Notes under the pieces: generated by a model
What the model was told of the DNA's origin: nothing
Database searches by the model: none
The model's input: only the letters and a program-made list of their open reading frames with translations
Translations under genes and position numbers: made by a program
Part shown: in pieces, positions 13,218 to 25,707 of the stretch
Numbering within the stretch: the stretch's first letter is position 1
Layout: each line of letters starts with the position of its first letter
IMG/VR virus record: IMGVR_UViG_3300006071_000067
Coordinates: 1 to 28,922 of that record
Direction: 5' to 3' (one strand)
DNA from: a virus
Length of the DNA: 28,922 bases

Positions 13218-15212
13218 ATGGCAAATCTTAATCAAACAGCGTTTGATCCTTCTCAGTTGGTTACGCTGCCGCAGCGTTTGCGTGACAATTTGGGCAAACA
13301 GAAGGTTTCCGAAAGCCAAAACCTGTTTGAAGCCGATTTTGAATACGGTTCCCAGCCCATGCGCTGGGAGAATTATACGGTTGGCGGGGCCACGGTTGTT
13401 CAAGTTCCGGGCCAAGGCGGCGTTCAGATGTCTGTTACGGCTGCTGCCGGTGACACCGCCATTCGTCAAACCCGTCCCTATATTCGTTACCAGCCCGGCA
13501 AAACCATTTACATGTCATCGGGTTTCTTGTTTGGCACGCCTTACGCAAACCAGCGCCAACGCGTTGGTTTCTTTGATGACGGCAATGGTATCTTTTTTGA
13601 GCAGGGCGATCCCACCACAACCAACCCATCAGGCATGAGTGTTGTGTATCGTTCCGACGTTGGCGGTGTTCCCACAGACACCCGCATTTCCTATGAAAAC
13701 TGGTCAGACCCCTACCAGATCAAAACCCAAATCAATTGGAGCATCATCCAAATGATCTGGATTGAGTTTGCATGGTATGGCGCAGGTTTGTTGCGTTGGG
13801 GTGTTGTTGTTGGTGGTGAACCGTTCCCATTACACACGATAGGTATTGGTAACAAAATCAGCCAAGTGACGCCTTGGTCGCGCACAGGTAACATTCCAGT
13901 GCGTTATGAAATCCGTAACATCGCGCCTGTCACAACCGGCTCTTCGCCTTACACCATGATTCACTGGGGTGTGTCGGTTCTTGCAGAAGGTCGTATTGAT
14001 ACGCAACGTGGTTTTACCTACGGTTACGGCATGGCGGCAGGGACACCGACCCGCGCTCCCGGCGCTTCGGCAACTCGTTACCCACTTCTTTCAATTCGTT
14101 ACCGCACGATGGGTACGCTTGAGTATGGCGTGGACTCTGCTTACAGCGGCAGCAACGGCACGCTTCCTACCGGCGGTGCCGCCATTTCGGCTACGCCCAC
14201 ATCGTCAATTGCGGTTCTTACGGGATCGTCTATTTCCGGCACAACCTTGACTGTGGGTACTGTCACTTCCGGTACAATCACTATTGGTCAGACAATCACC
14301 GGTGTCGGCGTAACGCCGGGAACGGTAATTTTGAGTGGCAGTGGTGCAACTTGGACAGTGAACAACAGCCAGACTGTTGCATCTACGTCGCTCTATCTTG
14401 CCGGAACCGTAATCACCGCGTCGGCAGCCACATGGACTGTCAACCAGTGGGCCGGTAAGTATGTGTTCTCTCGTGGATCAACCGCAGCCATAACCAGCAT
14501 CACGGTAAGCGGCACAACGGCAACAGTGACAACCACTGCCAACCCGAACTATTTGACCACCGGACGCTATCTGACAATCTCTGGTGCGACCGGCAACACT
14601 TCGGTTAACGGCACGTTCCAGATCACCGTTACCGGTGCAAATACTTTCACCTACACCGCTTCGACAATCACGACCGGTGCGGTGGGTGGAACACTGGTGT
14701 ATACACAGGGTCAGGGCGGTATTGGACGCATCTCGTACAACACGGCAACGGCTTTGTATGTTGTTGACAACATCAATTCCGAAGCTCCCATGAGTGTTCC
14801 TCCTGCAAGCGGCGGTAATTACATCCTTGGTGAAATTGATCGCGGTCAAATTTTGCCGCAGACTTTGAACATCTATTCCTCGGCAAACTGCACGTTGGAA
14901 TTGATTGCTTCGACCTTCTATTCACCTGTCACCCTAACAGGCGCATCGTTTGCCACGATGTATTCGCTTGGCTCGTTAAACAGCTTTGTTGAACGCGACG
15001 TTTCAGCAACCGCTTTGACCGGCGGCGAAGTGGTTTACAACACACCATTGCCTTCTGGTGGTTTGCAGAACTTCGACTTGACAGCGTTCTTCCCGCTTTA
15101 CAACACTGTGCAAGGTAACATGCCGGACATTCTGACTGTTGCCATTACAACTCCTTCGGGTTTTAGTGGTAACGTCGGTGCGTCTATTATTGCTCAGGAA
15201 GCCATGTCTTAA
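13218..15212 (+). CDS. Mosaic tail-fibre/virion protein with beta-repeat insertions
   Basis: 664 aa. Start is ATG 13218, with AAGGTGA at 13205-13211; a GTG two codons upstream is possible but overlaps the previous stop. Residues 1-310 are a beta-rich body (YTVGGATVVQVPGQGGVQMS, YIRYQPGKTIYMSSGFLFG, many aromatics) resembling a large phage head-to-tail or fibre protein. Residues about 330-500 read as inserted small beta modules: ISGTTLTVGTVTSGTITIG, then TSITVSGTTATVTTTANP with TFQITVTGANTFTYT. These modules recur in unrelated phage structural proteins. The body resumes at about 500 (GIGRISYNTATALYVVDNIN) through the C-terminus. The insertion looks like domain shuffling into a conserved scaffold. 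No enzyme motif is seen. Confidence 0.78.
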   Translation: MANLNQTAFDPSQLVTLPQRLRDNLGKQKVSESQNLFEADFEYGSQPMRWENYTVGGATVVQVPGQGGVQMSVTAAAGDTAIRQTRPYIRYQPGKTIYMSSGFLFGTPYANQRQRVGFFDDGNGIFFEQGDPTTTNPSGMSVVYRSDVGGVPTDTRISYENWSDPYQIKTQINWSIIQMIWIEFAWYGAGLLRWGVVVGGEPFPLHTIGIGNKISQVTPWSRTGNIPVRYEIRNIAPVTTGSSPYTMIHWGVSVLAEGRIDTQRGFTYGYGMAAGTPTRAPGASATRYPLLSIRYRTMGTLEYGVDSAYSGSNGTLPTGGAAISATPTSSIAVLTGSSISGTTLTVGTVTSGTITIGQTITGVGVTPGTVILSGSGATWTVNNSQTVASTSLYLAGTVITASAATWTVNQWAGKYVFSRGSTAAITSITVSGTTATVTTTANPNYLTTGRYLTISGATGNTSVNGTFQITVTGANTFTYTASTITTGAVGGTLVYTQGQGGIGRISYNTATALYVVDNINSEAPMSVPPASGGNYILGEIDRGQILPQTLNIYSSANCTLELIASTFYSPVTLTGASFATMYSLGSLNSFVERDVSATALTGGEVVYNTPLPSGGLQNFDLTAFFPLYNTVQGNMPDILTVAITTPSGFSGNVGASIIAQEAMS

Positions 15213-15229
15213 TAAGGAATAGCGCGTTT

Positions 15230-15466
15230 ATGGAACAGTATAAATCTCTTTTAGAAATGGGCCTTTGGGTCGTTGTAGCCACCATAGGGTGGTTTTTGAG
15301 AGAGCTGTGGGCTGCCGTAAAAACTCTGAAAGAAGACCTCAGAACGATTGAGCGGGAGCTTCCAAACACTTATGTGCGCCGCGACGATCATAAAACCGAC
15401 ATGAAAGAGATCAAAGATATGCTTGGCAAAATCTTTGATCGCTTAGAAAACAAGGCGGATAAGTGA
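15230..15466 (+). CDS. Small membrane-anchored coiled-coil protein, lysis region
   Basis: 78 aa. One N-terminal membrane segment (GLWVVVATIGWFLRELWAAV, about 11-30) is followed by a charged coiled coil (TLKEDLRTIERELPNTYVRR, then MKEIKDMLGKIFDRLENKAD). The TM-coil layout with a 'LPNTYVRRDD' link is common in phage lysis regions, where such proteins are annotated as holin-like, inner spanin-like or XhlA-like; function is unproved. AAGGAA precedes ATG 15230. A second protein of similar plan lies at 16343. Its TGA overlaps the ATG of the next tiny gene (TGATG). Confidence 0.72.
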   Translation: MEQYKSLLEMGLWVVVATIGWFLRELWAAVKTLKEDLRTIERELPNTYVRRDDHKTDMKEIKDMLGKIFDRLENKADK

Positions 15467-15633
15467 TGGCAAAACCCGGTCTTTATGCAAACATCAACGC
15501 CAAGCGTGAACGTATCCGTAAAGGATCGGGTGAAAAAATGCGCAGCCCTGGATCATCCGGCGCGCCCACAAATGACGCTTTTCGTAAATCTGCCCGCACC
15601 GCTAAACGCAATAAACGCAAAGGGAGGCGCTGA
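15466..15633 (+). CDS. Tiny very basic protein (55 aa), conserved phage type
   Basis: 55 aa, coupled to the gene before (TGATG at 15464) and the gene after (TGATG at 15631). It begins MAKPGLYANINAKRERIRKG and continues with SGEKMRSPGSSGAPTNDAF before an Arg/Lys-rich tail (RNKRKGRR). About a third of the residues are Lys or Arg, with no Cys or Trp. I recognise the 'PGLYANINAKRxRI...GSGEKMRxPG' pattern as recurring in phage genomes without a known function. An internal GGGAGG at 15622-15627 is the ribosome-binding site of the next gene. Nucleic-acid binding is plausible from charge alone. Confidence 0.75.
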   Translation: MAKPGLYANINAKRERIRKGSGEKMRSPGSSGAPTNDAFRKSARTAKRNKRKGRR

Positions 15634-15860
15634 TGTCTGGTCCTAATCTTTCCGTTGGTCGTGGTGAAAAGCAGTCTGTAAAACGCGGCGGCGGTTTGAC
15701 AGCCAAAGGCCGCAAAAAATACAACCGCGCAACCGGCAGTAATTTGAAAGCGCCGACCAAAGACCGTAACAATCCACGCCACAAATCATTTTGCGCACGC
15801 TCGAAAAAATGGAGCAGTGCGCGTGGCAAAGCAGCGCGTAGGCGCTGGGGTTGTCGGTGA
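15633..15860 (+). CDS. Small basic protein (75 aa), conserved phage type
   Basis: 75 aa; GGGAGG ends 5 bases before ATG 15633. The product is strongly basic: LSVGRGEKQSVKRGGGLTAK, then GRKKYNRATGSNLKAPTKD, a KSFCARSKKW block and a C-terminal RRRWGCR. The 'GGGLTAKGRKKYNRATGSNLKAP' stretch with a later KSFCARS motif is one I recognise as recurring in phages, often paired with the preceding tiny gene. Two Cys near the C-terminal half could bind metal. No function is known to me. Its basic character and place between membrane proteins and lysis genes suggest a nucleic-acid-binding or packaged protein (inference). Confidence 0.75.
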   Translation: MSGPNLSVGRGEKQSVKRGGGLTAKGRKKYNRATGSNLKAPTKDRNNPRHKSFCARSKKWSSARGKAARRRWGCR

Positions 15861-15869
15861 GGTGTTTGT

Positions 15870-16343
15870 ATGGACCCGTTGACACTTCTGGCTGGTGCGC
15901 AAGCCGCATACAGCGCGATACAGGCTGGTATTGCCGCCGGTAAAGAAATTCAAGGTATGGCTGCCGATCTATCGGACTTGTGGGGAAGCCTTGCGCAGCT
16001 CACGCACATTGCTGCGGAAAAACCATCCACCAACATTTTCAACAAAAAGACCGCTGAACAAATTGCCATCGAGCGGTACACCGCAAAAGCCGAAGCGCAA
16101 GACTTGGCGTTGAAAGCAAAGAACATGTTTGTGGGGCAATTTGGTTTGAACGCTTGGGATCAAGTGCAACGCGAGGTCATCAACATCCGCAAAGAGATCG
16201 AACGGCAGCGGTGGGAAGAAGAACGTACCAACGCGGCCAGACTGGAAGAAATCAAAGAAGCTGGCGTTGTGACGTTTATCGTTTTATTGTTGTTAGGTAT
16301 AATGCTGACAGTAGGGATTATACTTTTAGGGGTTAAAGTATAA
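15870..16343 (+). CDS. Amphipathic protein with C-terminal membrane helix
   Basis: 157 aa. The N-terminal 40 residues form an Ala/Gly-rich amphipathic segment (LTLLAGAQAAYSAIQAGIAA). Residues 55-130 are charged coiled coil (KKTAEQIAIERYTAKAEAQD, then VQREVINIRKEIERQRWEEE). Residues about 132-155 form one strong membrane helix (FIVLLLLGIMLTVGIILLGV) followed by a short end. Proteins starting 'MDPLT' with this layout are common beside holin and endolysin genes in marine and freshwater phages. A tail-anchored lysis accessory or internal virion role are both possible. GAGGTG precedes ATG 15870, and the stop overlaps the next start (TAATG). Confidence 0.7.
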   Translation: MDPLTLLAGAQAAYSAIQAGIAAGKEIQGMAADLSDLWGSLAQLTHIAAEKPSTNIFNKKTAEQIAIERYTAKAEAQDLALKAKNMFVGQFGLNAWDQVQREVINIRKEIERQRWEEERTNAARLEEIKEAGVVTFIVLLLLGIMLTVGIILLGVKV

Positions 16344-16624
16344 TGGATGACAAAGGTCACATTGACGTAAGCAAGATCGCCAGCATGGCATTTCCTGTCA
16401 TTGTTGCTGCGATCACATGGTTAATTTCCGGCATCAATACCCTGCACATGGATGTGCAGGACATCAAAGGTAAAATGCCTTTGTTAATTACGCCGCAGGG
16501 TGTTCCAACCGATAGTCCTATCAGCGCCGAAGCTCGTTACAAATTGCGGGATGAAATTTACAAAGACATAAACGACATGCGTGTTCGTATTCGTCTTTTG
16601 GAAGCAAAGTTGGGAGATAAGTGA
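16343..16624 (+). CDS. Small membrane-anchored coiled-coil protein
   Basis: 93 aa. A membrane segment at about 10-30 (IASMAFPVIVAAITWLISGI) is followed by a short coil (LHMDVQDIKGKM), a Pro-containing linker, and a C-terminal coil (ARYKLRDEIYKDINDMRVRI). The plan mirrors the 78-aa protein at 15230, so the two may be distant paralogues acting in the same membrane step. Start overlaps the previous stop and the TGA overlaps the holin start. Function is not known; inner-spanin-like or holin-modulator roles fit the layout. Confidence 0.68.
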   Translation: MDDKGHIDVSKIASMAFPVIVAAITWLISGINTLHMDVQDIKGKMPLLITPQGVPTDSPISAEARYKLRDEIYKDINDMRVRIRLLEAKLGDK

Positions 16625-17121
16625 TGGACCTTGGTATTTTTGGAAAGCTCATCGAAAATGTGGCTCCGACAATCGCAACTGCTATTGGTGGGCCTGTTGC
16701 TGGTATGGCCGTCAAAGCCCTATCTACCGCCCTTTTGGGACACGGAGATGGGTCTGAGGATGATATTACCGCTGCCCTATCAAACGCGACCCCAGATCAA
16801 ATTGCGGCAATCCGGCGGGCTGACAATGATTTTAAAGTCCAGATGAAATCACTGGATATTGATCTTGTAAAGATCGCGGCAGAAGATCGCGCTTCAGCAC
16901 GAGACATGGCCGCTTCAACCCATTCATACACACCATCCGTACTGTCTTACGTTACGGTCGTTTGTTGGGCCATCATTCAATATTACCTCTTTACGCACAT
17001 CATTGATCCATCTATGCGTGAGTTGATTGCACGCGTGCTCGGAACTCTTGATGGTGCCCTCATGCTTGTGCTGTCATTTTGGTTTGGTAGCAGCAATCCG
17101 CAGGTGAAAAATGAAAAATAA
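16624..17121 (+). CDS. Probable holin (three-segment, GTA-holin-like)
   Basis: 165 aa from ATG 16624, which overlaps the previous TGA; a GTG one codon upstream is less likely. Hydrophobic segments occur at about 10-38 (VAPTIATAIGGPVAGMAVKA), 102-122 (SYVTVVCWAIIQYYLFTHII) and 134-154 (LGTLDGALMLVLSFWFGSS). A soluble helical region lies between (TPDQIAAIRRADNDFKVQMK). This order, including the aspartate-rich middle and the final FWFGSS motif, matches the '3TM holin' family found in gene transfer agents and alphaproteobacterial phages. Holins make inner-membrane lesions that release endolysin. It overlaps the endolysin gene by 11 bases, a typical lysis-cassette link. Confidence 0.82.
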   Translation: MDLGIFGKLIENVAPTIATAIGGPVAGMAVKALSTALLGHGDGSEDDITAALSNATPDQIAAIRRADNDFKVQMKSLDIDLVKIAAEDRASARDMAASTHSYTPSVLSYVTVVCWAIIQYYLFTHIIDPSMRELIARVLGTLDGALMLVLSFWFGSSNPQVKNEK

Positions 17122-17623
17122 TTTTGACCAATGCCTTGCCTTCGTTCTCAAAGAAGAAGGCGGCTTTGTAAACGATGCCCATGATCCGGGCGGTGCAACG
17201 AACTTCGGCGTGACAAAGGCTACTTATGAACAGTTTATCGGACATCCTGTTAGCATTGAAGACATGCAGTCTCTCACTGTTGACCAAATTACTCCACTTT
17301 ATCGCCGGATGTTTTGGGACGCTATACATGGCGATGATCTCCCAGCTGGTGTGGATTACGCAATCCTTGATTTCGCTGTTAACAGTGGCGTTAAACGGGC
17401 TGCAAAAGCACTTCAACAAGCTGTAGGAGTTGAGGTCGATGGCGCTATTGGCGCTGGCACAATGGCTGCTGTCGCAAGTGCGGACGCTAAAGATATTGTG
17501 ACCAAAGTCTGTGCTGCACGGCTTGCGTTTTTGCAAGCTCTAACGACGTGGCAATATTACGGAAAAGGTTGGGGTGGGCGCGTTGCCCGTGTTGAACAAC
17601 GCGCCACCGAGATGGTCAGTTAG
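17111..17623 (+). CDS. Endolysin, GH108-type muramidase
   Basis: 170 aa, full length for the family. The catalytic motif KEEGGFVNDAHDPGGATNFG lies at 14-33, with Glu16 the likely general acid; GVTKATYEQF follows. The central stretch LYRRMFWDAIHGDDLP and ILDFAVNSGVKRAAKALQQA (about 115-135) match GH108. The C-terminal part VEVDGAIGAGTMAAV fits the peptidoglycan-binding PG_binding_3 region. These enzymes cleave MurNAc-GlcNAc bonds. There is no signal peptide, so release should depend on the holin just upstream. The 3' end overlaps the convergent minus-strand gene by 8 bases, and no clear terminator lies between them. Confidence 0.9.
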   Translation: MKNNFDQCLAFVLKEEGGFVNDAHDPGGATNFGVTKATYEQFIGHPVSIEDMQSLTVDQITPLYRRMFWDAIHGDDLPAGVDYAILDFAVNSGVKRAAKALQQAVGVEVDGAIGAGTMAAVASADAKDIVTKVCAARLAFLQALTTWQYYGKGWGGRVARVEQRATEMVS

Positions 17624-17954
17624 TCGGAGCTTCCGGCGCAAGTTTAGCAGCCATTTCTTTCACGTCATTTTCAAAGTCTGTGATCGACGGCATACGGCGG
17701 ATTTGATTTTTAATCTCATCCTCCACTCGTGTCAGAAAACTCACACGCGGATGCAAGGGAAGAGTTTGCGGGCGCGTCATGCTTTCGGTGGCCGGAACCT
17801 GTTGCAACTGCATGACGATCTGCGTCATCAACCGCACAGCGCGATAGTCTTCCGCAGTCATAAAGTTGCGTCCGTTCTGACCGGCCCGAACCATAACAAT
17901 ATTCATTAAACCAGCGGCAATTTCTTCCTCTTGCCCTGTTACCTGTTCATCCAT
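17616..17954 (-). CDS. Unknown protein, the only convincing minus-strand gene
   Basis: 112 aa. The start is supported by AAGGAG seven bases upstream on the minus strand (the complement of CTCCTT at 17961-17966). The product is helical and acidic at the N-terminus (GQEEEIAAGLMNIVMVRAGQ), with a central EDYRAVRLMTQIVMQLQQV helix and a charged C-terminal coil (RVEDEIKNQIRRMPSITDFE). No HTH, enzyme motif, membrane segment or signal peptide is apparent. It diverges from the Cro-like gene across a 95-base region holding two GACA-N3-TGTC-type sites. That is where a temperate phage would keep its maintenance repressor, but the sequence does not look like a CI protein. An anti-repressor or lysis-timing role would also fit. 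Confidence 0.65.
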   Translation of the reverse strand: MDEQVTGQEEEIAAGLMNIVMVRAGQNGRNFMTAEDYRAVRLMTQIVMQLQQVPATESMTRPQTLPLHPRVSFLTRVEDEIKNQIRRMPSITDFENDVKEMAAKLAPEAPTN

Positions 17955-17993
17955 AGTAAGCTCCTTTTGTTTTTGCCTAGCAACGGCGAGCTA

Positions 17994-18022
17994 CATCTCT
18001 CAATAAAAAGACAACTTGTCAA
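17994..18022 (-). promoter_or_regulatory. Possible leftward promoter, good -35 and weak -10
   Basis: On the minus strand a perfect TTGACA (18022 down to 18017) overlaps the rightward -35 back to back. At 17-base spacing the -10 position reads GAGATG, a poor match. Only the -35 supports this, so it may need an activator or be fortuitous. Confidence 0.3.
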
Positions 18023-18035
18023 CAGCCAGTTTGTC
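18010..18035. promoter_or_regulatory. Operator pair of GACA-N3-TGTC type
   Basis: GACAACTTGTC at 18010-18020 is a perfect 5+1+5 palindrome. GCCAGTTTGTC at 18025-18035 is a one-mismatch copy of the GACA-N3-TGTC pattern, 15 bases on. The first overlaps the -35 of the rightward promoter, and the second ends three bases before its -10. Both also lie in the upstream region of the divergent minus-strand gene, so one repressor could act on both. The binding protein is unknown; the Cro-like product encoded next door is the prime candidate. Confidence 0.6.
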
Positions 18036-18044
18036 CGTTATAAA
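18016..18044 (+). promoter_or_regulatory. Sigma70-like promoter for the Cro-like gene
   Basis: TTGTCA at 18016-18021 and TATAAA at 18039-18044 are separated by exactly 17 bases, so both hexamers are near consensus. The predicted transcription start falls at about 18050-18052, on the ATG of the downstream gene, giving a leaderless or nearly leaderless message. The -35 element lies inside a palindromic operator candidate. Confidence 0.65.
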
Positions 18045-18049
18045 AAGGC

Positions 18050-18277
18050 ATGTTTAATTTCAAAGCTTTCCTTCTCGAACACTGGCGCAATGCAGAAATG
18101 CTGCAACGCTTCCTTGCGACCTATGGCATCACCGAGTTGAAACGGGATTCTATTTACAAATGGTATCTGCGTGAAACCATTCCGGCGGATTGGTTTGCGG
18201 TGTTGCTGTGCTTGCTGGAATTGGACAAAGGCAAACCGGCCAGCATTGCGGGTTACATGAATGACCGAAGCGTTTGA
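18050..18277 (+). CDS. Cro/CI-like helix-turn-helix regulator, probably leaderless
   Basis: 75 aa. The segment MLQRFLATYGITELKRDSIY followed by KWYLRETIPADWFAVLLCLL (about 17-56) fits the small Cro-like HTH: a first helix, a recognition helix with 'xxIYKWYxRxxIPADW', then a hydrophobic closing helix. No ribosome-binding site stands at a normal distance (AAAAGG abuts the ATG). The promoter's -10 ends five bases before the ATG, so translation probably starts on a leaderless message. It heads a run with rusA, which starts inside its last codons (17-base overlap). The palindromes in its promoter suggest autoregulation (inference). Small HTH proteins of this kind are known in rhizobial phages and prophages. 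Confidence 0.75.
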   Translation: MFNFKAFLLEHWRNAEMLQRFLATYGITELKRDSIYKWYLRETIPADWFAVLLCLLELDKGKPASIAGYMNDRSV

Positions 18278-18680
18278 ACTGGTGTTGGATGGCGAGCCGA
18301 TTGGCAAAGGCCGTCCACGGTTCTCTCGTGCAACCGGCCACGCTTACACTCCAGAAAAAAGTGCGCGTTTCGAAGAACGACTCGCTTGGGCCGCTCAAAG
18401 CATTTGGCATGGGAAACCTTTATTGGCGGGTGCGCTGAAATTGACTGTCGTGGCGTTCCTTTCAATTCCCAAAAGCAAGCCTGCGTCATGGAAAAAGGGT
18501 GCATTGGACGGCACGATCCGACCTCTCAAGAAACCCGATCTTGATAACATTATCAAAGGCATAGGAGACGCGCTGAACCGCGTCGTCTATGTGGACGATA
18601 CGCAAATTGTCGAAGTGGATGCCTCCAAATATTATTCTGACCGACCGCGTATCACAATAAGGATTGACAGTTTGTCCTAA
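18261..18680 (+). CDS. rusA: RusA-family Holliday junction resolvase
   Basis: 139 aa, close to the usual length. The N-terminal GEPIGKGRPRFSRATGHAYT (11-30) is the RusA strand-loop. The acidic core KPDLDNIIKGIGDALN (91-106, Asp93 and Asp95) and VYVDDTQIV (Asp112/Asp113) supply the Mg2+-binding aspartates. RusA dimers cut Holliday junctions with paired nicks; in phages this resolves recombination intermediates or branched concatemers before packaging. It overlaps the Cro-like gene by 17 bases. Its last codons contain the TTGACA of the promoter for the next gene, so rusA and the helicase are separable transcription units. Confidence in the family is high. Confidence 0.92.
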   Translation: MTEAFELVLDGEPIGKGRPRFSRATGHAYTPEKSARFEERLAWAAQSIWHGKPLLAGALKLTVVAFLSIPKSKPASWKKGALDGTIRPLKKPDLDNIIKGIGDALNRVVYVDDTQIVEVDASKYYSDRPRITIRIDSLS

Positions 18681-18692
18681 AAGACATATTGT
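18664..18692 (+). promoter_or_regulatory. Sigma70-like promoter for the SNF2 helicase gene
   Basis: TTGACA at 18664-18669 is a perfect -35. TATTGT at 18687-18692 lies exactly 17 bases downstream and matches four of six -10 positions. The predicted start at about 18699 leaves a leader of roughly 28 bases that holds GAGGG (18712-18716) before ATG 18727. The promoter lies within the 3' end of rusA. Confidence 0.6.
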
Positions 18693-18693
18693 C
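18666..18693. promoter_or_regulatory. Tandem GACA-N3-TGTC operators over the helicase promoter
   Basis: GACAGTTTGTC (18666-18676) overlaps the -35, and GACATATTGTC (18683-18693) covers the -10. Both keep all eight outer bases of the palindrome and are spaced 17 bases centre to centre. Occupancy would block RNA polymerase. The same arrangement is seen, with one mismatch, before the Cro-like gene. This pair makes it unlikely that translation of the helicase begins at the TTG at 18664. Confidence 0.62.
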
Positions 18694-18726
18694 CGTAAAC
18701 CAACCGAATCTGAGGGCCAGTTGCCA

Positions 18727-20061
18727 ATGAAACCGATGCCAACACAATTATCTGGAGCGCAATTTTTGGCTTCACGGCATCGGGCCTTGTTGGCGGACGA
18801 GCCTCGCGTCGGAAAAACCGGCACCGCCATTATGGCTGCCGATCTGGTTCTTGCCCAAACCATTGATGTCGTCACAACAGCATCAGGCCGTGCCGTATGG
18901 CGGCGTGGTTTTCAAACATGGTCGAAAATGGGTCGCACCGTCGGTATTGTCGGCGTGGATAAAGACGCTGTTGAGTGTGATGTGCGCATTCACTCTTATA
19001 ACGGCGCAGTGAATTTTGTGAACAACCGCCACAACGATCTGGTGATCCTCGATGAGTCACACAACTGCAAAAACCCCGAAGCCAAACGCACCGAAGCCCT
19101 TTTGGGAAAAGCCATTGCGGGTGGTTCGAAATTGGTCAATGGTTCGGCGTTTGTTAAACCGGATACACGGGCGTGGTTTCTCACAGGCACCCCGTTGCCA
19201 CACGACCCTGGTGATATATGGACGACCATGCGTTCGTCATGTCCAGAAAGGCTTTTGCCTGATCCTGCGCGTGGGTGGCCCGACGTAACCAAATTTGATG
19301 ATTTCCGGTGGCGTTATTGCGTTATTAGAATGAAACAGATTTCCCGTTTTAACAAAATCCCTGTTGTGATTGGTGGACGCAACACCGAAGAATTGCGGGA
19401 ACGTCTCGGAGACTTCATGCTTCGCCGCACACAAAAAGACATTGGCATCCGGCCTCCGACTTATGAATTACAACCATTGTTGGTGTCCCCAAAAGTGCGC
19501 AAACAAGTGGATGGTGATCTGGATCGGGAATTGATCTTGAAAGCTGCCGAAGAAAACAGAACCGCCGATCTTGAGATGCACTTAGGTCCGTTGCGTCGTT
19601 TGACCGGCACGATCAAGGCCCATGCGGTGGCCGAAGCCGTCAAAGAAGAGTTTGATTCCGGCCTCGACAAGATTGTGTTGATGTATTGGCACCGAGAAGT
19701 TGGCGACATTCTTGAACGTGAACTTATCAAGTTCAAACCGTTGCGGATCGACGGATCAACCAATGCAAAAGAACGGGAACACGCCGAATTGACGTTCAAA
19801 GTCAGCGACGTTCATCGTGTTTTTCTTGGCCAAATACAAGCGGCTGGTGAAGCCATCGACTTGTCGGCGGCTGCCGAGCTTTGGTTTGTGGAAACCTCTT
19901 TTTCACCGAAAGATCAGGCACAAGCATCAAAGCGCATTACGAATGTGACGCAGACACGCAACACATATGTCCGTGTTTGCTGCATCGAGGGTTCAATTGA
20001 CGAGGCGCTTCAAGCTTCGCTGTTGAGATTGTGGACTGCCATTAACGGAGTAATCAAATGA
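18727..20061 (+). CDS. SNF2-like superfamily 2 helicase
   Basis: 444 aa from ATG 18727 (GAGGG ten bases upstream); an earlier TTG would read through the operators. Motif I is LLADEPRVGKTGTA (21-34), with Asp-Glu before GKT as in SNF2 proteins. Motif II is VILDESHNCKNPEAKR (DESH 109-112) and motif III FLTGTP. The C-terminal lobe shows DKIVLMYWHREVG, LRIDGST, an FLGQIQAAGEAIDLSAAAE segment (motif V) and DQAQASKRITNV (motif VI). Phage enzymes of this class commonly sit in modules with DUF2800, DUF2815 and a family A polymerase, as here. They probably remodel or unwind DNA at replication. Start and stop overlap the next gene as ATGA. Confidence 0.88.
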   Translation: MKPMPTQLSGAQFLASRHRALLADEPRVGKTGTAIMAADLVLAQTIDVVTTASGRAVWRRGFQTWSKMGRTVGIVGVDKDAVECDVRIHSYNGAVNFVNNRHNDLVILDESHNCKNPEAKRTEALLGKAIAGGSKLVNGSAFVKPDTRAWFLTGTPLPHDPGDIWTTMRSSCPERLLPDPARGWPDVTKFDDFRWRYCVIRMKQISRFNKIPVVIGGRNTEELRERLGDFMLRRTQKDIGIRPPTYELQPLLVSPKVRKQVDGDLDRELILKAAEENRTADLEMHLGPLRRLTGTIKAHAVAEAVKEEFDSGLDKIVLMYWHREVGDILERELIKFKPLRIDGSTNAKEREHAELTFKVSDVHRVFLGQIQAAGEAIDLSAAAELWFVETSFSPKDQAQASKRITNVTQTRNTYVRVCCIEGSIDEALQASLLRLWTAINGVIK

Positions 20062-20882
20062 TAAAGATCGACATTACACTTGACCCTCAGTGGGGAAATC
20101 TTGAAGACCAGCTTACTAAGCACATGAAAGCATTGGGTTTTGTCAAAGCCCCTGTTGTGGGAATTGTGCCTCTTACACCGCCCGAACAATTTGTCTCCCC
20201 CGCCCCAAAAAATTTGGATGATCTGACAACTTGTCCTACATCGCATACAGTGGCCGAAATTCATACGACCGGTGCAACCGAGTTGAATGCAATTCCGCCG
20301 GAAGGTTACAAGGTTGAGATCAAAGCGCGCAAGACCCGCGCCAAGAAGAATGATCCGGTTGTCACCAAAGAAGAAGCGGTGGCGCTGATGGAAGCGGCAG
20401 TTGATCCGCTCGACATCGAGGACGAAAAGCCCGAAGAGGTTTCCGGCAAGCTGACGCATGACGATTTGCGGGCCGTGGTCGGTGAGTTCACACGAGTTTA
20501 CGGGATTGCCAAAGCGCAGAAGATGATCCCCGTCATTCTTGGTTGCGCCATCGTGGAAGTGCCGGAAAATGAAATTCAGGAAGCAATTGATAAAATTCGG
20601 GCCGAGATCACCGATGCCGAGGACGAACTTGAAGAAGAAACGGTAGCTTCACAAGCTGATGTGCGGGAAGCTTTGATGGAATATGCCAAAAAGTATGATG
20701 GTGATGATCCGAAGATGAGCAATACAATGGTCGATGGCCCGAAAATCCTCACCGCTGAATTTGGTGAGGGTGTCACTGCCATCCGTCTCATTCCAAACGA
20801 TCCCAAATCTTATGGTCGTGCGTTGAACGCGATCAACAACGCCATCACAACAAATCCATTTAAACGGAAAGTCGCGCTATGA
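20058..20882 (+). CDS. Acidic two-repeat protein of the replication module, unknown function
   Basis: 274 aa. The N-terminal 90 residues are a short helix and a Pro-rich linker. Next comes a basic patch (EIKARKTRAKKND) and an acidic stretch. Two related helical units follow: LTHDDLRAVVGEFTRVYGIA with AQKMIPVILG at about 135-170, and a second unit from about 198 (SQADVREALMEYAKKYDGDD). Phage proteins with repeated 'xxDVRxAlxxYxxKyG' helices occur beside ssDNA-binding and recombination genes, but I cannot give a defined activity. ATGA overlap with the helicase and overlap with the DUF2800 gene place it in the replication operon. Operator-like palindromes lie inside it. Confidence 0.7.
   Translation: MIKIDITLDPQWGNLEDQLTKHMKALGFVKAPVVGIVPLTPPEQFVSPAPKNLDDLTTCPTSHTVAEIHTTGATELNAIPPEGYKVEIKARKTRAKKNDPVVTKEEAVALMEAAVDPLDIEDEKPEEVSGKLTHDDLRAVVGEFTRVYGIAKAQKMIPVILGCAIVEVPENEIQEAIDKIRAEITDAEDELEEETVASQADVREALMEYAKKYDGDDPKMSNTMVDGPKILTAEFGEGVTAIRLIPNDPKSYGRALNAINNAITTNPFKRKVAL
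20185..20235. promoter_or_regulatory. Intragenic operator-like palindromes
   Basis: GACAACTTGTC at 20225-20235 is identical to the site before the Cro-like gene. AACAATTTGTC at 20185-20195, 40 bases earlier, has one mismatch to GACA-N3-TGTC. Both lie within codons 43-60 of the 274-aa gene. No convincing promoter overlaps them. They could be roadblock or looping sites, or chance. Confidence 0.35.
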
Positions 20883-22174
20883 AGCAGGCACACGCAGACA
20901 GAGACCACGCCGTTTGGTCTGCATCGGCCACTGCCGCCAACTGGACTTGCGCCGGTCGGCTGGCAATGGTGTCGATTTCGCCGGATGATGAGGAAAACAT
21001 CTATGCCGCCGAAGGCACGGCAGCCCACGAAATTGCGGAGCGCGCTTTGCGCTCCGACAAGAATTGCGCCAAATATCTCGGTGAGATCATCAAAACCAAA
21101 AAGTTTGAAGTTGAAATTACCGAAGAGATTGTGGAGTCAGCGCAGAAGTTCGTCGATTATGTCGATGGCTTGAACGACATCGTGGGTCAGCGGTGCGAGC
21201 TGTTTCTGGAACAGAAATACAGCCTTGCCTCGATGGAACCACCCTTTGATGCCGGTGGCACCTGCGACGCGATTGTGGTCAACCCCGTCATGAACACACT
21301 TGAAGTGGTTGATCTGAAACACGGTCGCGGCATTGTTGATGTGAACGAAAACAAGCAAACGCGCACTTATGCGTTGCTTGCATTGCTTAACATGGACCCA
21401 AAACTTGCACGCAAGGTCGATTACATCAAGTCCACCATTGTTCAGCCCCGCGCTTATCACAAGAACGGGATTATCCGGTCAGAGACATTCCATGTGGCCG
21501 ATTTGGTCGAGTGGACTGCCGAACTGATGAAAGCGATGGGACGGTCGAAAGCCGCCCTCGATGAGTTCGAGCAGATCAACGGCAGCCGGATCAAATTTGA
21601 CGAATGGGCGGAAAAGCATCTCACGCCGGGCAATTGCAAGTTCTGCCCTGCCGAGGGCACTTGCCCCGCACTTCGTAAAAAAGCACTGGCCGTTGCGCCG
21701 GAAGTTGCAAAAATCTGGTTTGAAGACCCGACTTTGGAGACACCACCAACTATGACAAATCAAGTGGACGTTCTTTCGCCGGAACAATTGGCACATATTT
21801 TGGATGGCCTTGATGTTCTTGAAGATTGGATCAAAGCTGTGCGGTCGCACGCACACGCTTCTGCCGAAAAAGGAACAAAAATTCCGGGTTATCAATTGGT
21901 AGAAAAAATCGGCAACAGAAAATGGGCTGCTGATGAAGAAAAAATAATTTTGGATCTAAAAAACAAAATAAAATTATCGGAAGACCAAATTTTTGCAAAA
22001 AAACTTTTGTCGCCATCGCAAATTGAAAAAATTATCGGTGCAAAACGCAAAGGTGAGATTGCGAATATGTGGATGAACCCCGTAACTGGTACAAATTTAG
22101 TTTCGGAAGAAAAAACTTCTCGACCCGCAGTGAAAACAAAAGTCGAAAATTTTTTTGAACCCGTAAAAAACTAA
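20879..22174 (+). CDS. DUF2800-family PD-(D/E)xK (RecB/Cas4-like) nuclease
   Basis: 431 aa. Features of the nuclease fold: ASATAANWTCAGR (Cys24), AAEGTAAHEIAERAL (His50, Glu51), catalytic GGTCDAIVV (Asp130) and LEVVDLKHGRG (Asp145, Lys147). A Tyr/Gln helix and a Cys-rich knuckle GNCKFCPAEGTCPAL near residue 262-275 follow; with Cys24 this may hold an Fe-S cluster as in Cas4/AddB-type nucleases. Such proteins pair with DUF2815 and a SNF2 helicase in phage replication/recombination modules and are probably exonucleases producing single-stranded DNA. After about residue 325 the DNA becomes strikingly AT-rich (about 30% G+C in some 60-base blocks against 65% near its start), hinting at a C-terminal part of different origin. 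Confidence 0.85.
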   Translation: MKQAHADRDHAVWSASATAANWTCAGRLAMVSISPDDEENIYAAEGTAAHEIAERALRSDKNCAKYLGEIIKTKKFEVEITEEIVESAQKFVDYVDGLNDIVGQRCELFLEQKYSLASMEPPFDAGGTCDAIVVNPVMNTLEVVDLKHGRGIVDVNENKQTRTYALLALLNMDPKLARKVDYIKSTIVQPRAYHKNGIIRSETFHVADLVEWTAELMKAMGRSKAALDEFEQINGSRIKFDEWAEKHLTPGNCKFCPAEGTCPALRKKALAVAPEVAKIWFEDPTLETPPTMTNQVDVLSPEQLAHILDGLDVLEDWIKAVRSHAHASAEKGTKIPGYQLVEKIGNRKWAADEEKIILDLKNKIKLSEDQIFAKKLLSPSQIEKIIGAKRKGEIANMWMNPVTGTNLVSEEKTSRPAVKTKVENFFEPVKN

Positions 22175-22218
22175 AAATTTTTTTTGTTGGATTCGCCAAC
22201 CAGCAAAATTTTTTTGAA
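22146..22218. repeat. Three A4T7-8 tract repeats in an AT-rich island
   Basis: The tract AAAATTTTTTTG, with 7 or 8 T, occurs at 22146-22157, 22174-22186 and 22205-22216. The first and third are identical over 14 bases (AAAATTTTTTTGAA). Spacings of 28 and 31 bases are close to three helical turns, so the tracts could produce an in-phase bend. The island spans the end of the DUF2800 gene and the leader of the DUF2815 gene. Confidence 0.7.
22182..22215 (+). terminator. Weak intrinsic-terminator-like hairpin
   Basis: TTTTGTTGG (22182-22190), loop ATTCG, CCAAC (22196-22200), then after a four-base bulge AAAA (22205-22208) and seven T (22209-22215). The stem is only five strong pairs plus four A-T pairs across the bulge, so termination would be partial at best. 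It may set the ratio of nuclease to ssDNA-binding protein transcripts. Confidence 0.3.
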
Positions 22219-22242
22219 ACGGCGAACATAAGGAACTGAGAA

Positions 22243-22860
22243 ATGGAACGCTCTGCTGACTTCAAGACTCCCCTCTGCCGCGTATCTTTCGCTGGGAGTT
22301 TATTTAAACCACGCGCCCAGCAAGCGGGCGGTGTGGAGAAATACGGCTGCACTCTGATTTTCCAAAAGAGTGTTGATAAATCTGCGCTGGAAAACGCTTT
22401 GAAGAATGTCATTATTGGACAGTGGGGAGAAAAAGGATTGGAGCGGGCAAAAGCCGGACTTATCAAATCTCCATTCTTAGATGGTGCAGGCAAAGAAGCT
22501 CGTAACAAATCTACCGGTGATCTGCACCCCGGTTTTGGACCGGATGTTTTTTTCATTCGCGTCCAATCAATCCGCGCTCCGATTGTTCGGTGGAAATCCG
22601 AAAACATTCCGGCGACTGAAGATGAGGTCTATTCCGGTTGCTATGGCAAAGCGGTCCTGAATGCCTTTGCTTGGACGAACGCCCAGAATGGCGATGGTGT
22701 CTCCTTCGGCATTCAGATGTTCCAGAAGTTGCAAGAGGGTGAACGCCTCGGCGGCGGTGGCGGCATCGACCCGACCAGTTGGATGGAAACCGTACCGGAT
22801 GAAGGTCCGGCACCGGAATCCACTCGCGGTGCGGGTGCTGGTGGTTTGTTCGGTTCCTGA
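22243..22860 (+). CDS. DUF2815-family single-stranded DNA-binding protein
   Basis: 205 aa, AAGGA upstream of ATG 22243. Family signatures: CRVSFAGSLFKPRAQQAGG near the start, YGCTLIFQKS, RNKSTGDLHPGFGPDVFFIR in the middle, and YSGCYGKAVLNAFAWTNAQN with GVSFGIQMFQKLQEGERLGG toward the end. The tail is Gly-rich and ends GGLFGS, as is common for this family and for SSB-like proteins. DUF2815 proteins have an OB-like fold and accompany DUF2800 nucleases in phage replication modules, where they coat single-stranded DNA. The gene follows an AT-rich leader with A-tracts and a GATTC site. Confidence 0.88.
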   Translation: MERSADFKTPLCRVSFAGSLFKPRAQQAGGVEKYGCTLIFQKSVDKSALENALKNVIIGQWGEKGLERAKAGLIKSPFLDGAGKEARNKSTGDLHPGFGPDVFFIRVQSIRAPIVRWKSENIPATEDEVYSGCYGKAVLNAFAWTNAQNGDGVSFGIQMFQKLQEGERLGGGGGIDPTSWMETVPDEGPAPESTRGAGAGGLFGS

Positions 22861-22868
22861 TCTTAACA

Positions 22869-22888
22869 GGGGTGGGGCAACCCACCCC
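22869..22888 (+). other. Perfect 8-bp RNA hairpin with GCAA tetraloop
   Basis: GGGGTGGG (22869-22876), loop GCAA, CCCACCCC (22881-22888). A GNRA loop on a GC-rich stem is very stable in RNA. Only ACTTTA follows, not a proper U-tract, and AGGAG of the next gene begins six bases later. It is more likely a 3'-end stabiliser of the DUF2815 message or a structure affecting translation of the GapR-like gene than a strong terminator. Confidence 0.7.
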
Positions 22889-22906
22889 ACTTTAGGAGTA
22901 ATACTT

Positions 22907-23134
22907 ATGACTGAGGTTGTGAACTCAACACACATGATGCAGCTCCTCGACCGCATCGAGCATTTGGAAGCTGAAAAGAAAGAGATCGCCGGTGACATTG
23001 CCGAGGTCTGGAAAGAAGCCAAGGCAATGGGCTTTACAAAAGAACTGAAAAAGGCACACTCTATCCGCAAGATGAAATCCGAAGATCGGGCAGTCTTGGG
23101 CGTGTATGTGCAAGCACTGGGTTTGTTCGATTAG
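22907..23134 (+). CDS. GapR-like (DUF2312) nucleoid-associated protein
   Basis: 75 aa, ATG 22907 with AGGAG at 22894-22898; any longer reading would run into the DUF2815 gene. The sequence LLDRIEHLEAEKKEIAGDIA, then EVWKEAKAMGFTKELKKAHS, RKMKSEDRAVLGVY and ALGLFD follows the DUF2312 pattern of two helices joined by a Gly-Phe turn and a final short helix. GapR of Caulobacter binds AT-rich, overtwisted DNA and supports replication and growth; homologues occur in alphaproteobacteria and their phages. In this phage it may shape its own replicating DNA or displace host GapR (inference). Neighbours are the ssDNA-binding protein and a GcrA-like gene. Confidence 0.88.
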   Translation: MTEVVNSTHMMQLLDRIEHLEAEKKEIAGDIAEVWKEAKAMGFTKELKKAHSIRKMKSEDRAVLGVYVQALGLFD

Positions 23135-23153
23135 CATCAACGGGGAGGTTGAT

Positions 23154-23555
23154 ATGTGGACAGATGAAGCAACGGAATCATTACGCGGTTTGATGGCACA
23201 AGGATGGACGGCGCGAAAAATAGCCCAACATCTCGGCCCTGCCTTCACCCGATCCGAAGTGATTTCAAAATGGCGTAGTATGGGGTTAACTTACCAAGTG
23301 GCACGAACACCGGCAACCCCCATCACCGTCAGCTATTCTGTCCTTCCTTTTACCTCCCCTGCTACCGAACCCAAACCCATAACATTCAATGATTTGGAAA
23401 ATGGGATGTGCCGTTACCCACTGAGCGGCGAAGGCAGGAGTATCATATTTTGCGGAGAGAAAACCATCAATCGAACCTATTGCGCGTGTCATCAAAAACT
23501 GACGCGCATACCAGGAACAGCGTCCAAACTGACAGTAAAAGACCTGTTAAAATAA
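23154..23555 (+). CDS. GcrA-like cell-cycle transcription regulator
   Basis: 133 aa, ATG 23154 with GGGGAGG upstream. The N-terminus MWTDEATESLRGLMAQGWTA, then RKIAQHLGPAFTRSEVISKW and RSMGL (1-45) is the GcrA DNA-binding helix-turn-helix. The C-terminal part ITFNDLENGMCRYPLSGE, IIFCGE (Cys100) and RTYCACHQKL (Cys110, His113) matches the conserved sigma70-interaction region of GcrA. In Caulobacter GcrA binds RNA polymerase with sigma70 and activates promoters carrying methylated GANTC. A phage copy could redirect host polymerase. The gene ends in GTTAAAATAA, and the next frame continues through it without a good start codon. Confidence 0.87.
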   Translation: MWTDEATESLRGLMAQGWTARKIAQHLGPAFTRSEVISKWRSMGLTYQVARTPATPITVSYSVLPFTSPATEPKPITFNDLENGMCRYPLSGEGRSIIFCGEKTINRTYCACHQKLTRIPGTASKLTVKDLLK

Positions 23556-23899
23556 CCACCGACCAGCTTCGATACCGTTTTGAAGCCATTGAAAGAGAAC
23601 TGGAAGCCCTGCGGGCTTTGGTCATACCTGATCCAGTATTTGCACCAAATATTAAAATTGCCAAAATGCAACGACGCATTTTGCAAATTCTTTATACGGC
23701 AAATACTGGAATGGTTCATAGAAACAAGTTAGTTACGCTTGTTTATAAAAATAAAACACCTAAAGGAAAAGCATTACTTGTTAACATTTCTACGTTAAGA
23801 AGGGCTTTGAAGAACTACGGAATCGAGATCATCACAAAATATAACGGCGGTTATGTTTTAGACCAAGAGAACAGGAACAAACTGGAGGCACTTCTATGA
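23486..23899 (+). CDS. OmpR/PhoB-type winged-helix domain protein, start uncertain
   Basis: 137 aa if GTG 23486 is used. There is no ATG before the conserved part and no good ribosome-binding site; GTG 23408 and TTG 23480 are alternatives, or entry by frameshift. A short coil TTDQLRYRFEAIERELEALR is followed by the winged helix KMQRRILQILYTANTGMVHR, NKLVTLVYKNKTPKGKALLV, NISTLRRALKNYGIEIITK and the wing YNGGYVL. This matches the C-terminal effector domain of OmpR/PhoB response regulators (the class including CtrA), without a receiver domain. It is therefore a DNA-binding protein not controlled by phosphorylation through itself. The coding sequence is AT-richer than its neighbours. It overlaps the gcrA-like gene and the next gene (ATGA-type overlap). 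Confidence 0.72.
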   Translation: MSSKTDAHTRNSVQTDSKRPVKITTDQLRYRFEAIERELEALRALVIPDPVFAPNIKIAKMQRRILQILYTANTGMVHRNKLVTLVYKNKTPKGKALLVNISTLRRALKNYGIEIITKYNGGYVLDQENRNKLEALL

Positions 23900-24390
23900 C
23901 TATCAATGTGGAACTACCAGATGATTTTATTAACAAGATGCGCGACTATTCACTTGTTTATGTCGCAACACCTTATTCGAAATATGAAGAAGGTCTTGAT
24001 GTTGCACATAAACATGCTTGCACCGTCACTGGTGAACTGTTGAAGTTTGGCATCAATGCCTATTCACCCATTGCTTACACCCATCAAATCGCCCAGCACG
24101 CAAACATTGATCCGTTGGATCATCAATTCTGGATGCGTGTTGACAAGCCTTTCATGCAGAAAGCCGATGCACTGATTGTTGTGCAGATGGATGGTTGGAT
24201 GGAAAGTCTTGGTGTGAACATGGAAATCATGGAATTTCGTGAAGCTGGAAAGCCCATCGAATATCTGCGTTTCTTTGAGCCTAAAGTGCGGCCTTTGACT
24301 CAAGCCAAAATCGTTCAAAACATCATCAGCAGTCTCATCATTTTGAGTTTTACCTTTCTGCTTTACATCGTCATGTTCGGAGGTCGGTAA
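23896..24390 (+). CDS. DUF1937 (deoxyribosyltransferase-like) protein with C-terminal membrane helix
   Basis: 164 aa, GGAGG upstream of ATG 23896. Residues about 18-130 match DUF1937: VYVATPYSKYEEGLDVAHKH, YSPIAYTHQIAQHA, FWMRVDKPFMQKADALIVVQ, then MDGWMESLGVNMEIMEFREA and GKPIEYL. The fold is related to nucleoside 2-deoxyribosyltransferases, with YSPI and MDGW near the expected active site; the substrate is not known. Unusually, residues about 140-162 form a hydrophobic segment (IISSLIILSFTFLLYIVMF) that would anchor the enzyme in the membrane. Most relatives I know lack this. It may act on nucleotides or ADP-ribose-like molecules at the membrane (inference). Confidence 0.78.
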   Translation: MTINVELPDDFINKMRDYSLVYVATPYSKYEEGLDVAHKHACTVTGELLKFGINAYSPIAYTHQIAQHANIDPLDHQFWMRVDKPFMQKADALIVVQMDGWMESLGVNMEIMEFREAGKPIEYLRFFEPKVRPLTQAKIVQNIISSLIILSFTFLLYIVMFGGR

Positions 24391-24623
24391 TGGTTTATTT
24401 TGCCGATGAAGAACAGAAGAAAACGCTGACGCTTTTGTCTTCTGCCACACGCGCTGTCAGAGCCATCGACACGCTTGCAACAGAATTGAAAGCCAGTCGT
24501 GATGCCATGCAGATGGCGGCCAAGTCGCTTGACTTTGCGTGCAAGGCTTTGGCGGAACGTGATGCCGAGATTAAGTATCTCAAAGCCATCATCGCACGGC
24601 TTGAGGTTCAAGGACATGGGTAA
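24390..24623 (+). CDS. Small coiled-coil protein, unknown function
   Basis: 77 aa, start overlapping the previous stop (TAATG) with GGAGG about nine bases upstream. The chain is almost wholly helical: ATRAVRAIDTLATELKASRD, AMQMAAKSLDFACKALAERD and AEIKYLKAIIARLE. No enzyme or DNA-binding motif is visible. Its 3' end overlaps the start of the methyltransferase gene by 8 bases, so the two are coupled. A structural or oligomerisation partner is possible. Confidence 0.65.
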   Translation: MVYFADEEQKKTLTLLSSATRAVRAIDTLATELKASRDAMQMAAKSLDFACKALAERDAEIKYLKAIIARLEVQGHG

Positions 24624-25140
24624 ACGCTCTGACTTCGAACGCTCTCCAAATGATTACTATCCAACGCCGCCAACGGCTCTTGTTCCGTTGTTGCCGCATC
24701 TGCATGATCGCACAAAGTTCGTTGAGCCTTGTGCCGGTGACGGACGCTTGATCGACTATCTTGAGATGTTCGATCACACCTGCACGTTTGCGTGCGACAA
24801 CGAACCTCGGCGCACGGATATTGTTCAGATGGATGCGTTTGATCTGTCCGAAAAAGATTGTGCGGGCGCAAATTACATTATCACAAACCCACCGTGGTCG
24901 CGTGAGATTCTGCATCCGCTCATTTTACGCTTCACATCACTGCGACCAACATGGTTGTTATTTGATGCGGACTGGCTCTACACCAAGCAAGCCAAGACGT
25001 ACATGGAGTACTGCGTGGCGGTGGTGGCAGTGGGTCGTGTCAAATGGATGGAAGGCTCCAAACATACCGGCAAAGACAATTGCGCTTGGTATTTGTTCAG
25101 CACAGGTAAACATGAAGAAACCAAATTTTATCCACGATAG
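24616..25140 (+). CDS. NPPW-motif DNA methyltransferase (N6-adenine type, short)
   Basis: 174 aa. Start chosen at ATG 24616 (AAGGA just upstream); an upstream reading would overlap the whole preceding gene. YYPTPPTALVPLLPHL precedes the SAM-binding motif FVEPCAGDGRLIDYLE (about 37-52). A later acidic strand is FACDNEP, and the catalytic motif ANYIITNPPWSREI lies near 95-108. The end GKDNCAWYLFS fits phage adenine methyltransferases. NPPW is typical of N6-adenine enzymes, though rRNA or other amino-methylases share NPPY/W. No separate target-recognition domain is present, so specificity cannot be predicted. Together with the GcrA-like gene it recalls the host GcrA-CcrM pair, but it is not a CcrM orthologue by length. 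Confidence 0.8.
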   Translation: MGKRSDFERSPNDYYPTPPTALVPLLPHLHDRTKFVEPCAGDGRLIDYLEMFDHTCTFACDNEPRRTDIVQMDAFDLSEKDCAGANYIITNPPWSREILHPLILRFTSLRPTWLLFDADWLYTKQAKTYMEYCVAVVAVGRVKWMEGSKHTGKDNCAWYLFSTGKHEETKFYPR

Positions 25141-25150
25141 GAGAACTACA

Positions 25151-25399
25151 ATGGGTGGTGATACGAAACGGCGCATCAGTGATCTTGAAATTGAATTGAC
25201 CGAAGAACGCAACAAAAACAAATTGTTGATGACATTGTTGTCTGACCGACCGACATTGCGCGATCAATTTGCGATGGCGGCTTTGACAGGCGTTATCACG
25301 CGCTCTGGAACATATTTTGGAATTGAAGAGTTTGATAAGTTCGCGGCGTGGTCCTATGAAATTGCGGATAAAATGATGGAGGCTCGTAAAGATGGATGA
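25151..25399 (+). CDS. Small phage protein with DQFAMAALTG motif
   Basis: 82 aa, AGGAGA ten bases before ATG 25151. The first 30 residues are a charged coil (RRISDLEIELTEERNKNKLL). Then comes RPTLRDQFAMAALTGVITRS and, at the C-terminus, FAAWSYEIADKMMEARKDG. The 'LRDxFAxxALxxxI ... AYEIADAMLxAR' pattern recurs in many small phage proteins of unknown function, usually among early genes. Its end overlaps the next tiny gene by 8 bases. No membrane segment or metal motif is seen. Confidence 0.72.
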   Translation: MGGDTKRRISDLEIELTEERNKNKLLMTLLSDRPTLRDQFAMAALTGVITRSGTYFGIEEFDKFAAWSYEIADKMMEARKDG

Positions 25400-25532
25400 A
25401 GCCTATTGGATTAACTATGTTTTGGAATGGGTGAGCGTCTTTCTTGGTTTAGGTATTGCCTCACCCCTTTTGATCTCGGCATATGTAATTTTGAAAAACG
25501 ATGGAAAGACCAATGTCAAACTCAAAGGATAA
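25392..25532 (+). CDS. 46-aa single-pass membrane protein
   Basis: ATG 25392 lies within the end of the previous gene. After a short polar start the hydrophobic segment WVSVFLGLGIASPLLISAYV spans about residues 13-32, followed by a basic tail (ILKNDGKTNVKLKG). Small single-span proteins like this are frequent in phage early regions and may target host membrane functions. No ribosome-binding site beyond GGAGG at 25379-25383 is evident. Confidence 0.55.
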   Translation: MDEAYWINYVLEWVSVFLGLGIASPLLISAYVILKNDGKTNVKLKG

Positions 25533-25707
25533 TGTCATCAACGTCAATTTCAAAGCGTCGTTGACGGAAAAATTGACGGACGAAATCTTGGAGTTGATTT
25601 TCAAGAACTCCAAAGACCTTACTTTTTACGAGGCCATTGGTGTTCTTGAAACGGTCAAGTTTGAACTGTTCGCTTTAACAAATGACGGAGGTGACATTGC
25701 ATCCTGA
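25513..25707 (+). CDS. Small acidic helical protein, unknown function
   Basis: 64 aa from ATG 25513 (GGAAAG shortly upstream); ATG 25501 would add four residues. The protein is helical: NVINVNFKASLTEKLTDEIL, ELIFKNSKDLTFYEAIGVLE, TVKFELFALTNDGG. It overlaps the membrane protein gene by 20 bases and the next tiny gene by 11. I recognise no family. Confidence 0.58.
   Translation: MSNSKDNVINVNFKASLTEKLTDEILELIFKNSKDLTFYEAIGVLETVKFELFALTNDGGDIAS

Follow-up and report, generated by a model that had tools for sequence, protein, structure and literature searches.

A 75-aa helix-turn-helix protein encoded on a virus contig from IMG/VR is best read as a Cro-type autorepressor that would also shut off a replication operon, an interpretation drawn from sequence comparison to which we assign a probability of about 0.8. 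Its candidate operators lie on two promoters, are conserved in relatives and change together with residue 37 of the protein.

Palindromic boxes on two promoters

The window is the whole of record IMGVR_UViG_3300006071_000067, a linear virus contig of 28.9 kb that is itself a fragment, in which tail genes are followed by genes for a lysozyme (GH108), the regulator, RusA, an SNF2 helicase, a product without assigned function, an exonuclease and an Enc34-type SSB. The features that enter the argument are these:

18010..18020, no strand: candidate operator box O1 of P1, GACAACTTGTC, exact; overlaps the P1 -35; every near relative has it at -41/-40 relative to the start codon
18016..18044, + strand: predicted promoter P1, TTGTCA (18016-18021), N17, TATAAA (18039-18044), read from sequence; regulator ATG at 18050
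18025..18035, no strand: candidate operator box O2 of P1, GCCAGTTTGTC, one mismatch; in the P1 spacer, 15 bp from O1
18050..18277, + strand: 75-aa Cro-like helix-turn-helix regulator, from homologs and model; recognition helix residues 32-41 (K37, W38, R41)
18261..18680, + strand: RusA-family Holliday junction resolvase, gene 2 of the P1 operon (PF05866, E 1.6e-32; phrog_140)
18664..18692, + strand: predicted promoter P2, TTGACA (18664-18669), N17, TATTGT (18687-18692), in the 3' end of the RusA gene plus the gap
18666..18676, no strand: candidate operator box O1 of P2, GACAGTTTGTC, on the P2 -35
18683..18693, no strand: candidate operator box O2 of P2, GACATATTGTC, on the P2 -10
18730..20061, + strand: SNF2-family helicase, first gene past P2 (PF00176/PF00271, phrog_62)
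20058..20882, + strand: gene without assigned function that holds the fourth box (open frame, Pfam and PHROG searches)
20225..20235, no strand: intragenic box, GACAACTTGTC, exact; one-mismatch copy at 20185
20879..22174, + strand: exonuclease-like gene (DUF2800, PD-(D/E)XK; Pfam, PHROG), after P2 and presumed to be in the same operon
22243..22860, + strand: single-stranded DNA binding protein (PF10991, E 5.2e-23), after P2 and presumed to be in the same operon

Exact copies of GACANNNTGTC occur in the 28.9-kb window only at 18010, 18666, 18683 and 20225, against 0.43-0.47 expected, and four copies were reached in none of 100 shuffles. This agrees with the sequence-only reading, which had counted four copies at these positions, none elsewhere, for about 0.4 expected; it had also placed three of them on promoter elements, and the P1 -35, the P2 -35 and the P2 -10 are indeed where they lie. 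One-mismatch copies are only in mild excess over the whole window (18 versus 11.4 expected), and therefore exact or tandem copies alone carry meaning. Boxes are spaced, start to start, by 15 bp at P1 (18010/18025) and by 17 bp at P2 (18666/18683), and all of them fall between about -41 and -5 of the predicted transcription starts, none being upstream of a -35. P2 is the best sigma-70-like match of positions 15200-28922 (10/12), and sigma-70-like matches total 14, the same as in shuffles. The helicase most likely starts at ATG 18730, the start common to relatives; we rejected a longer open frame from 18664 as mechanical.

A search of a phage collection returned no near DNA match of the window among named phages, and its distant matches comprised only two short pieces of the helicase gene. 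The nearest named relative is Rhizobium phage RHph_N65 (55% identity in the helicase, 36% in the regulator), and our literature search found no paper on this phage or on such an arrangement of boxes and genes. Two adjoining genes, at 22661-23134 and 23106-23555, are GapR-like (PF10073) and GcrA-like (PF07750), respectively; GapR and GcrA are chromosome or cell-cycle regulators of alphaproteobacteria, and the two genes point to alphaproteobacterial hosts. The window also contains a collagen-like tail fibre gene with many repeats of 9-bp period (8153-10483) and a C5 methyltransferase gene at 26048, 8 kb from the regulator.

The regulator and its predicted mRNA

Homologs of the 75-aa protein in relatives have 71-81 aa. 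No PHROG matched the protein, its only Pfam hit was Phage_CI_repr at E 0.1, below the cut-off, and a profile search of solved structures gave chance-level matches only. A structure model built on a 16-sequence alignment (mean pLDDT 86.5) contains helices at residues 4-12, 15-24, 32-41 and 46-59, and W38 and R41, both in the third of these, are among the invariant residues. The best structure match of the model was N15 Cro, with a weak score (Z 5.2, rmsd 3.1 over 60 residues), followed by an also weak fold match to C.EcoT38IS; other top, likewise weak, rows were phage 186 (2fjr) and Xfaso1 Cro, and Foldseek gave no match below E 1.

In the near clade (see below), the P1 -10 ends 5-6 nt before the ATG, and there is no Shine-Dalgarno sequence at a useful distance. 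Because of this short spacing we predict that the regulator mRNA is probably leaderless, with the transcript starting at or next to the ATG. Controller (C) proteins of restriction-modification (R-M) systems offer a close parallel, since their genes have paired boxes on their own promoter and a leaderless mRNA (PMC4824078, PMC3758141), and the box layout seen here is the same as that of the C.PvuII type (GACT-tat-AGTC twice, leaderless C gene; PMC4824078). The protein might accordingly act mainly as an activator in the manner of such controllers, with an upstream box for activation and a downstream box for repression. We consider this unlikely: neither P1 nor P2 of the window has a box upstream of the -35, and a protein bound to boxes at about -41 to -5 should block the polymerase. 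We favour repression over activation because the boxes sit within the RNA polymerase footprint, with none upstream.

Conservation of the boxes in relatives

Scanning IMG/VR with the helicase yielded 30 loci that were 44-80% identical; 18 records of the near clade, the window included, total 224 kb. Of 43 exact sites in these records, 39 are at P1 or P2, for 3.1 expected sites in all, and the other four lie within a gene, at 20225 in the window and at the corresponding positions of L018, L019 and L022. The palindromes lie about 65 (or 48) bp before the helicase gene and about 720-830 bp before it, the latter directly 5' of the regulator gene. The sequence-only reading was to be given up if related phages did not keep the palindromes at these promoters, and the boxes proved to be kept at both P1 and P2. 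The N3 core is variable (ACT, AGT, GGT, TAT, GTT and others), and C tends to follow the box.

The tandem pair that had been proposed for each promoter, spaced 15 and 17 bp, stands for the window and for P1 of the relatives, and holds for P2 in few of them. All near relatives, and also L058 (49% identical), have the P1 tandem of boxes 15 bp apart, and P1 promoter spacing in relatives is within 1 nt of that in the window. At P2, most relatives have the -35 box only; the -10 box is exact in the window, L018, L019 and L022 and degenerate elsewhere. L020 and L021 have a different frame in place of the RusA gene and retain the boxes of both promoters. The replacing frame (L020:4046-4537, L021:451-942; starting MKIYVGVDPGASGAIAF) looks like a RuvC-type resolvase.

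The box at 20225 is kept in L018, L019, L022 and L023, no better than the surrounding coding sequence, and is absent from other near relatives. A third promoter at this site was considered and rejected: CTGACA-N17-TACAGT is present in the window, but its -10 is not kept in L018. Loci L067 (position 2821) and L068 (position 2834), from G013 and G014, have a second box just 5' of another promoter-like sequence, consisting of TTGACA or TTGACATT and a TACACT/TACAAT-like -10. From these second boxes, the regulon of some temperate relatives may hold a further promoter.

Box and residue 37 change together

A wider search gave 43 distinct homologs of the 75-aa protein, and the covariation of their residue 37 with the box is the strongest evidence pointing to this protein as the reader of the boxes. 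Of the 38 homologs with Lys37, 31 are preceded within 400 bp by an exact GACA box and most others by a box with one mismatch; in L029 the box lies one gene further upstream, and the examined stretch of L084, L090 and L115, which likewise have Lys37, contains no exact box. Homologs with Asn36-Gln37 number four (L030, L099, L106 and L107); none is preceded by an exact GACA box, and all four have AACA-N3-TGTT instead, in full TAACA-N3-TGTTA. The distant relative L030, first taken as a counter-example for its lack of a GACA box, was rejected as such, as it carries the swapped box. Fisher tests gave P values of 4.5e-5 for AACA and 0.003 for GACA, which assume independent rows and are overstated, since the swap occurred in one clade.

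The swap extends beyond the gene's own promoter. TAACA-N3-TGTTA is at P1 and at P2, before the helicase, in five of five records searched from this clade, and G012, G029 and G030 have it beside the end of the primase gene as well. The 64-kb record G012 has only three AACA-N3-TGTT sites, one each at P1, P2 and the primase end, and GACA boxes number 1, 0, 2 and 2 in G012, G029, G030 and G032 (57-64 kb each), where they are sited elsewhere. In the tree of the 43 homologs, which was built from 75 columns only and does not resolve the deep forks, the four Asn36-Gln37 proteins form a single clade (support 99/95), and the swap therefore counts as one event, seen at three places.

L058 groups next to the Gln37 clade, yet it has Asn36-Lys37 and GACA boxes, and Arg40 is common to the Gln37 clade, L028 and L029, the last two with GACA boxes. 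Because Asn36 in L058 and Arg40 in L028 and L029 accompany GACA boxes, it is position 37 that goes with the outer base pair. Lysine usually contacts G and glutamine A. Residue 37 is not the whole code, because L060, a separate protein, has Gln37 yet one exact GACA box; its promoter boxes are GACA..TGTC (one exact), TACA..TGTC and TACA..TGTA, looser at the outer base pair. Three records without a detected homolog (G007, G008 and EBPR siphovirus 2) have one box each, which in G007 and G008 lies inside long frames unlike the regulator region.

The sequence-only reading had proposed one repressor, probably the 75-aa protein, for both promoters, and the conservation of the boxes, their co-occurrence with the protein and the joint swap of box and residue 37 argue for this proposal.

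Boxes at the primase end

The window ends short of its primase gene, and boxes at the primase end come from longer relatives only. In these, a third box region spans the end of a long gene, from about 140 bp before its stop to 335 bp beyond it. This gene is a primase where tested (L039, L041, L042, L065 and L072), with either Prim-Pol and AAA_25 or PriCT_2 and DUF5906 domains, and looks the same by sequence in the remaining records. The boxes lie beside clustered short repeats in G002, G005, G006, G010, G011, G027, RHph_N65, G035 and G036, as do the swapped boxes in G012, G029 and G030. Repeat units such as ACTGGAGC, ACTGCGGC, ATCTCCGC, ACCCTCGC and CCAACCCC are present in 6-12 copies in most records, where shuffles of six repeat regions averaged a best count of about 2 to 4; G006 has four copies, no excess over shuffles, and G012 also has only four. 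Iteron-like repeats directly follow the primase gene in L039, L040, L041, L042, L064, L065, L066, L072 and L118-L121, and their unit differs even between close relatives (ACTGGAGC in L039, ACTGCGGC in L040).

Several relatives have a hairpin, ACCCCT..AGGGGT, 3' of the repeats, and together the repeats and the hairpin look like putative iteron origins of changing specificity. Cumulative GC skew turns upward close to the end of the primase gene in RHph_N65, G036 and G010 and does not clearly do so in G029, which lends the origin weak support. Lambda Cro influences origin activity via transcription from pR (PMC3985674); boxes beside the repeats would, unlike in lambda, permit direct action at the origin. 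Such action by the Cro-like protein is a tentative proposal that we regard as somewhat doubtful, suggested by boxes that bracket or flank the iteron-like array in about ten longer relatives. If it is true, one small protein would couple the shut-off of early transcription with control of origin firing or of transcription through the origin, and would do so in a phage line seemingly without the CI side of the switch.

CI-like repressors, host regulators and promoter hexamers

Temperate relatives, among them RHph_N65, Bosea lathyri and L032, encode an HTH_3 repressor and an integrase divergently from the 75-aa gene, and boxes occupy the gap between these and the 75-aa gene. The boxes could thus serve a CI-like XRE repressor as its operators, as they perhaps do in those relatives, with the 75-aa protein doing something else. 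This is quite improbable, because the boxes are best kept in the near clade, where we found no HTH_3 protein and no integrase in any record searched, the window included and all of them fragments, and because the box changes with residue 37 of the 75-aa protein. Moreover, both proteins could bind, as lambda CI and Cro both bind the operators. The CI/integrase module is absent from its usual place in the near clade, the site being occupied by lysozyme or other genes; this suggests, from records that are all fragments, that the near clade lost the module, and another regulator could be encoded outside the 28.9-kb fragment. A 112-aa frame of no assigned family lies on the minus strand at 17616-17954, its start 56 bp upstream of the first P1 box, roughly where temperate relatives hold the CI-like gene, and is seemingly kept in L018, L019 and L022.

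A regulator of the alphaproteobacterial host might also read the boxes. Host factors are indeed exploited by phages, and such hosts are suggested by the GcrA- and GapR-like genes, which is nothing specific to these boxes; the position of the boxes beside one and the same phage gene across many lineages, and their change within a single phage clade along with residue 37 of a phage protein, make a host reader very improbable. Finally, that the boxes are by-products of promoter hexamers, GACA being part of TTGACA and the left arm at P2 part of the -35, can be dismissed almost entirely, since a promoter has no need of a right arm at fixed N3, the P1 -35 uses the right arm instead, boxes are also found at the primase gene end, and the Gln37 clade keeps TTGACA while its TAACA-N3-TGTTA box sits on the spacer and -10.

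Proposed mechanism

Under autorepression by a Cro-type protein, P1 would yield the regulator early, together with RusA and probably on a leaderless mRNA. The protein, presumably a dimer, would bind GACA-N3-TGTC through its recognition helix (residues 32-41), Lys37 reading the outer G:C pair. As it accumulated, it would cover the P1 -35 and spacer, repressing its own gene, and the P2 -35 (in the window also the -10), repressing the SNF2, exonuclease and SSB genes, so that early transcription would turn itself down.

Comparison with known regulators

The protein resembles Cro of temperate phages (lambda, P22, N15 type) as a small HTH protein encoded by the first gene of an early operon, with candidate operators on its own promoter and, in temperate relatives, a divergent CI-like repressor. 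Comparative evidence, namely the boxes at P1 and the residue-37 covariation, agrees with operators on the gene's own promoter that are read by the recognition helix, and helix-operator covariation of this kind is described for Cro (Hall et al. 2005, as cited in PMC4997575). Unlike Cro, the protein matches none of the Pfam or PHROG Cro families significantly, its box has 11-13 bp with an N3 centre, a second operator set lies at an internal promoter before the SNF2 helicase gene, and longer relatives have boxes at the primase gene end. An opposing, divergent CI-type repressor was found in temperate relatives but, like the integrase, not in the window or the near clade, all fragments, and for this reason we call the protein Cro-like and not a Cro.

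With C proteins of the C.PvuII/C.Esp1396I type it shares a similar small size, boxes on its own promoter and a leaderless mRNA, here predicted from spacing; the paired boxes have the same layout and differ in the fourth base (GACT-N3-AGTC versus GACA-N3-TGTC). Unlike with C proteins, there is no activating box upstream of the -35, the presumed targets are phage replication genes, and no link to a restriction endonuclease was found, the neighbours being lysozyme, RusA, SNF2, exonuclease and SSB genes. As with the repressor of cluster A mycobacteriophages (L5, D29), the sites of one regulator would be spread over an early promoter and other parts of the genome, and D29, a lytic relative, lost the repressor but keeps the sites (PMC5712189); L5 differs in having about 24 asymmetric sites read by a lysogenic repressor, whereas here there are few, palindromic sites and a Cro-like reader. 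In its proposed action the system resembles a phage Cro and in its layout an R-M controller gene, and it departs from each class in at least one defining feature.

The specificity swap and the sites at the putative origin go beyond the sequence-only reading. Together, our results define a small phage regulator family without a Pfam or PHROG match, with its operator, regulon and a naturally occurring specificity change pointing to one recognition residue, making the binding rules testable at once. The same operator is tied to a putative replication origin in a large phage group on which there is almost no experimental work, and this lineage seems to have kept the Cro side of a lysis/lysogeny switch but not its CI side.
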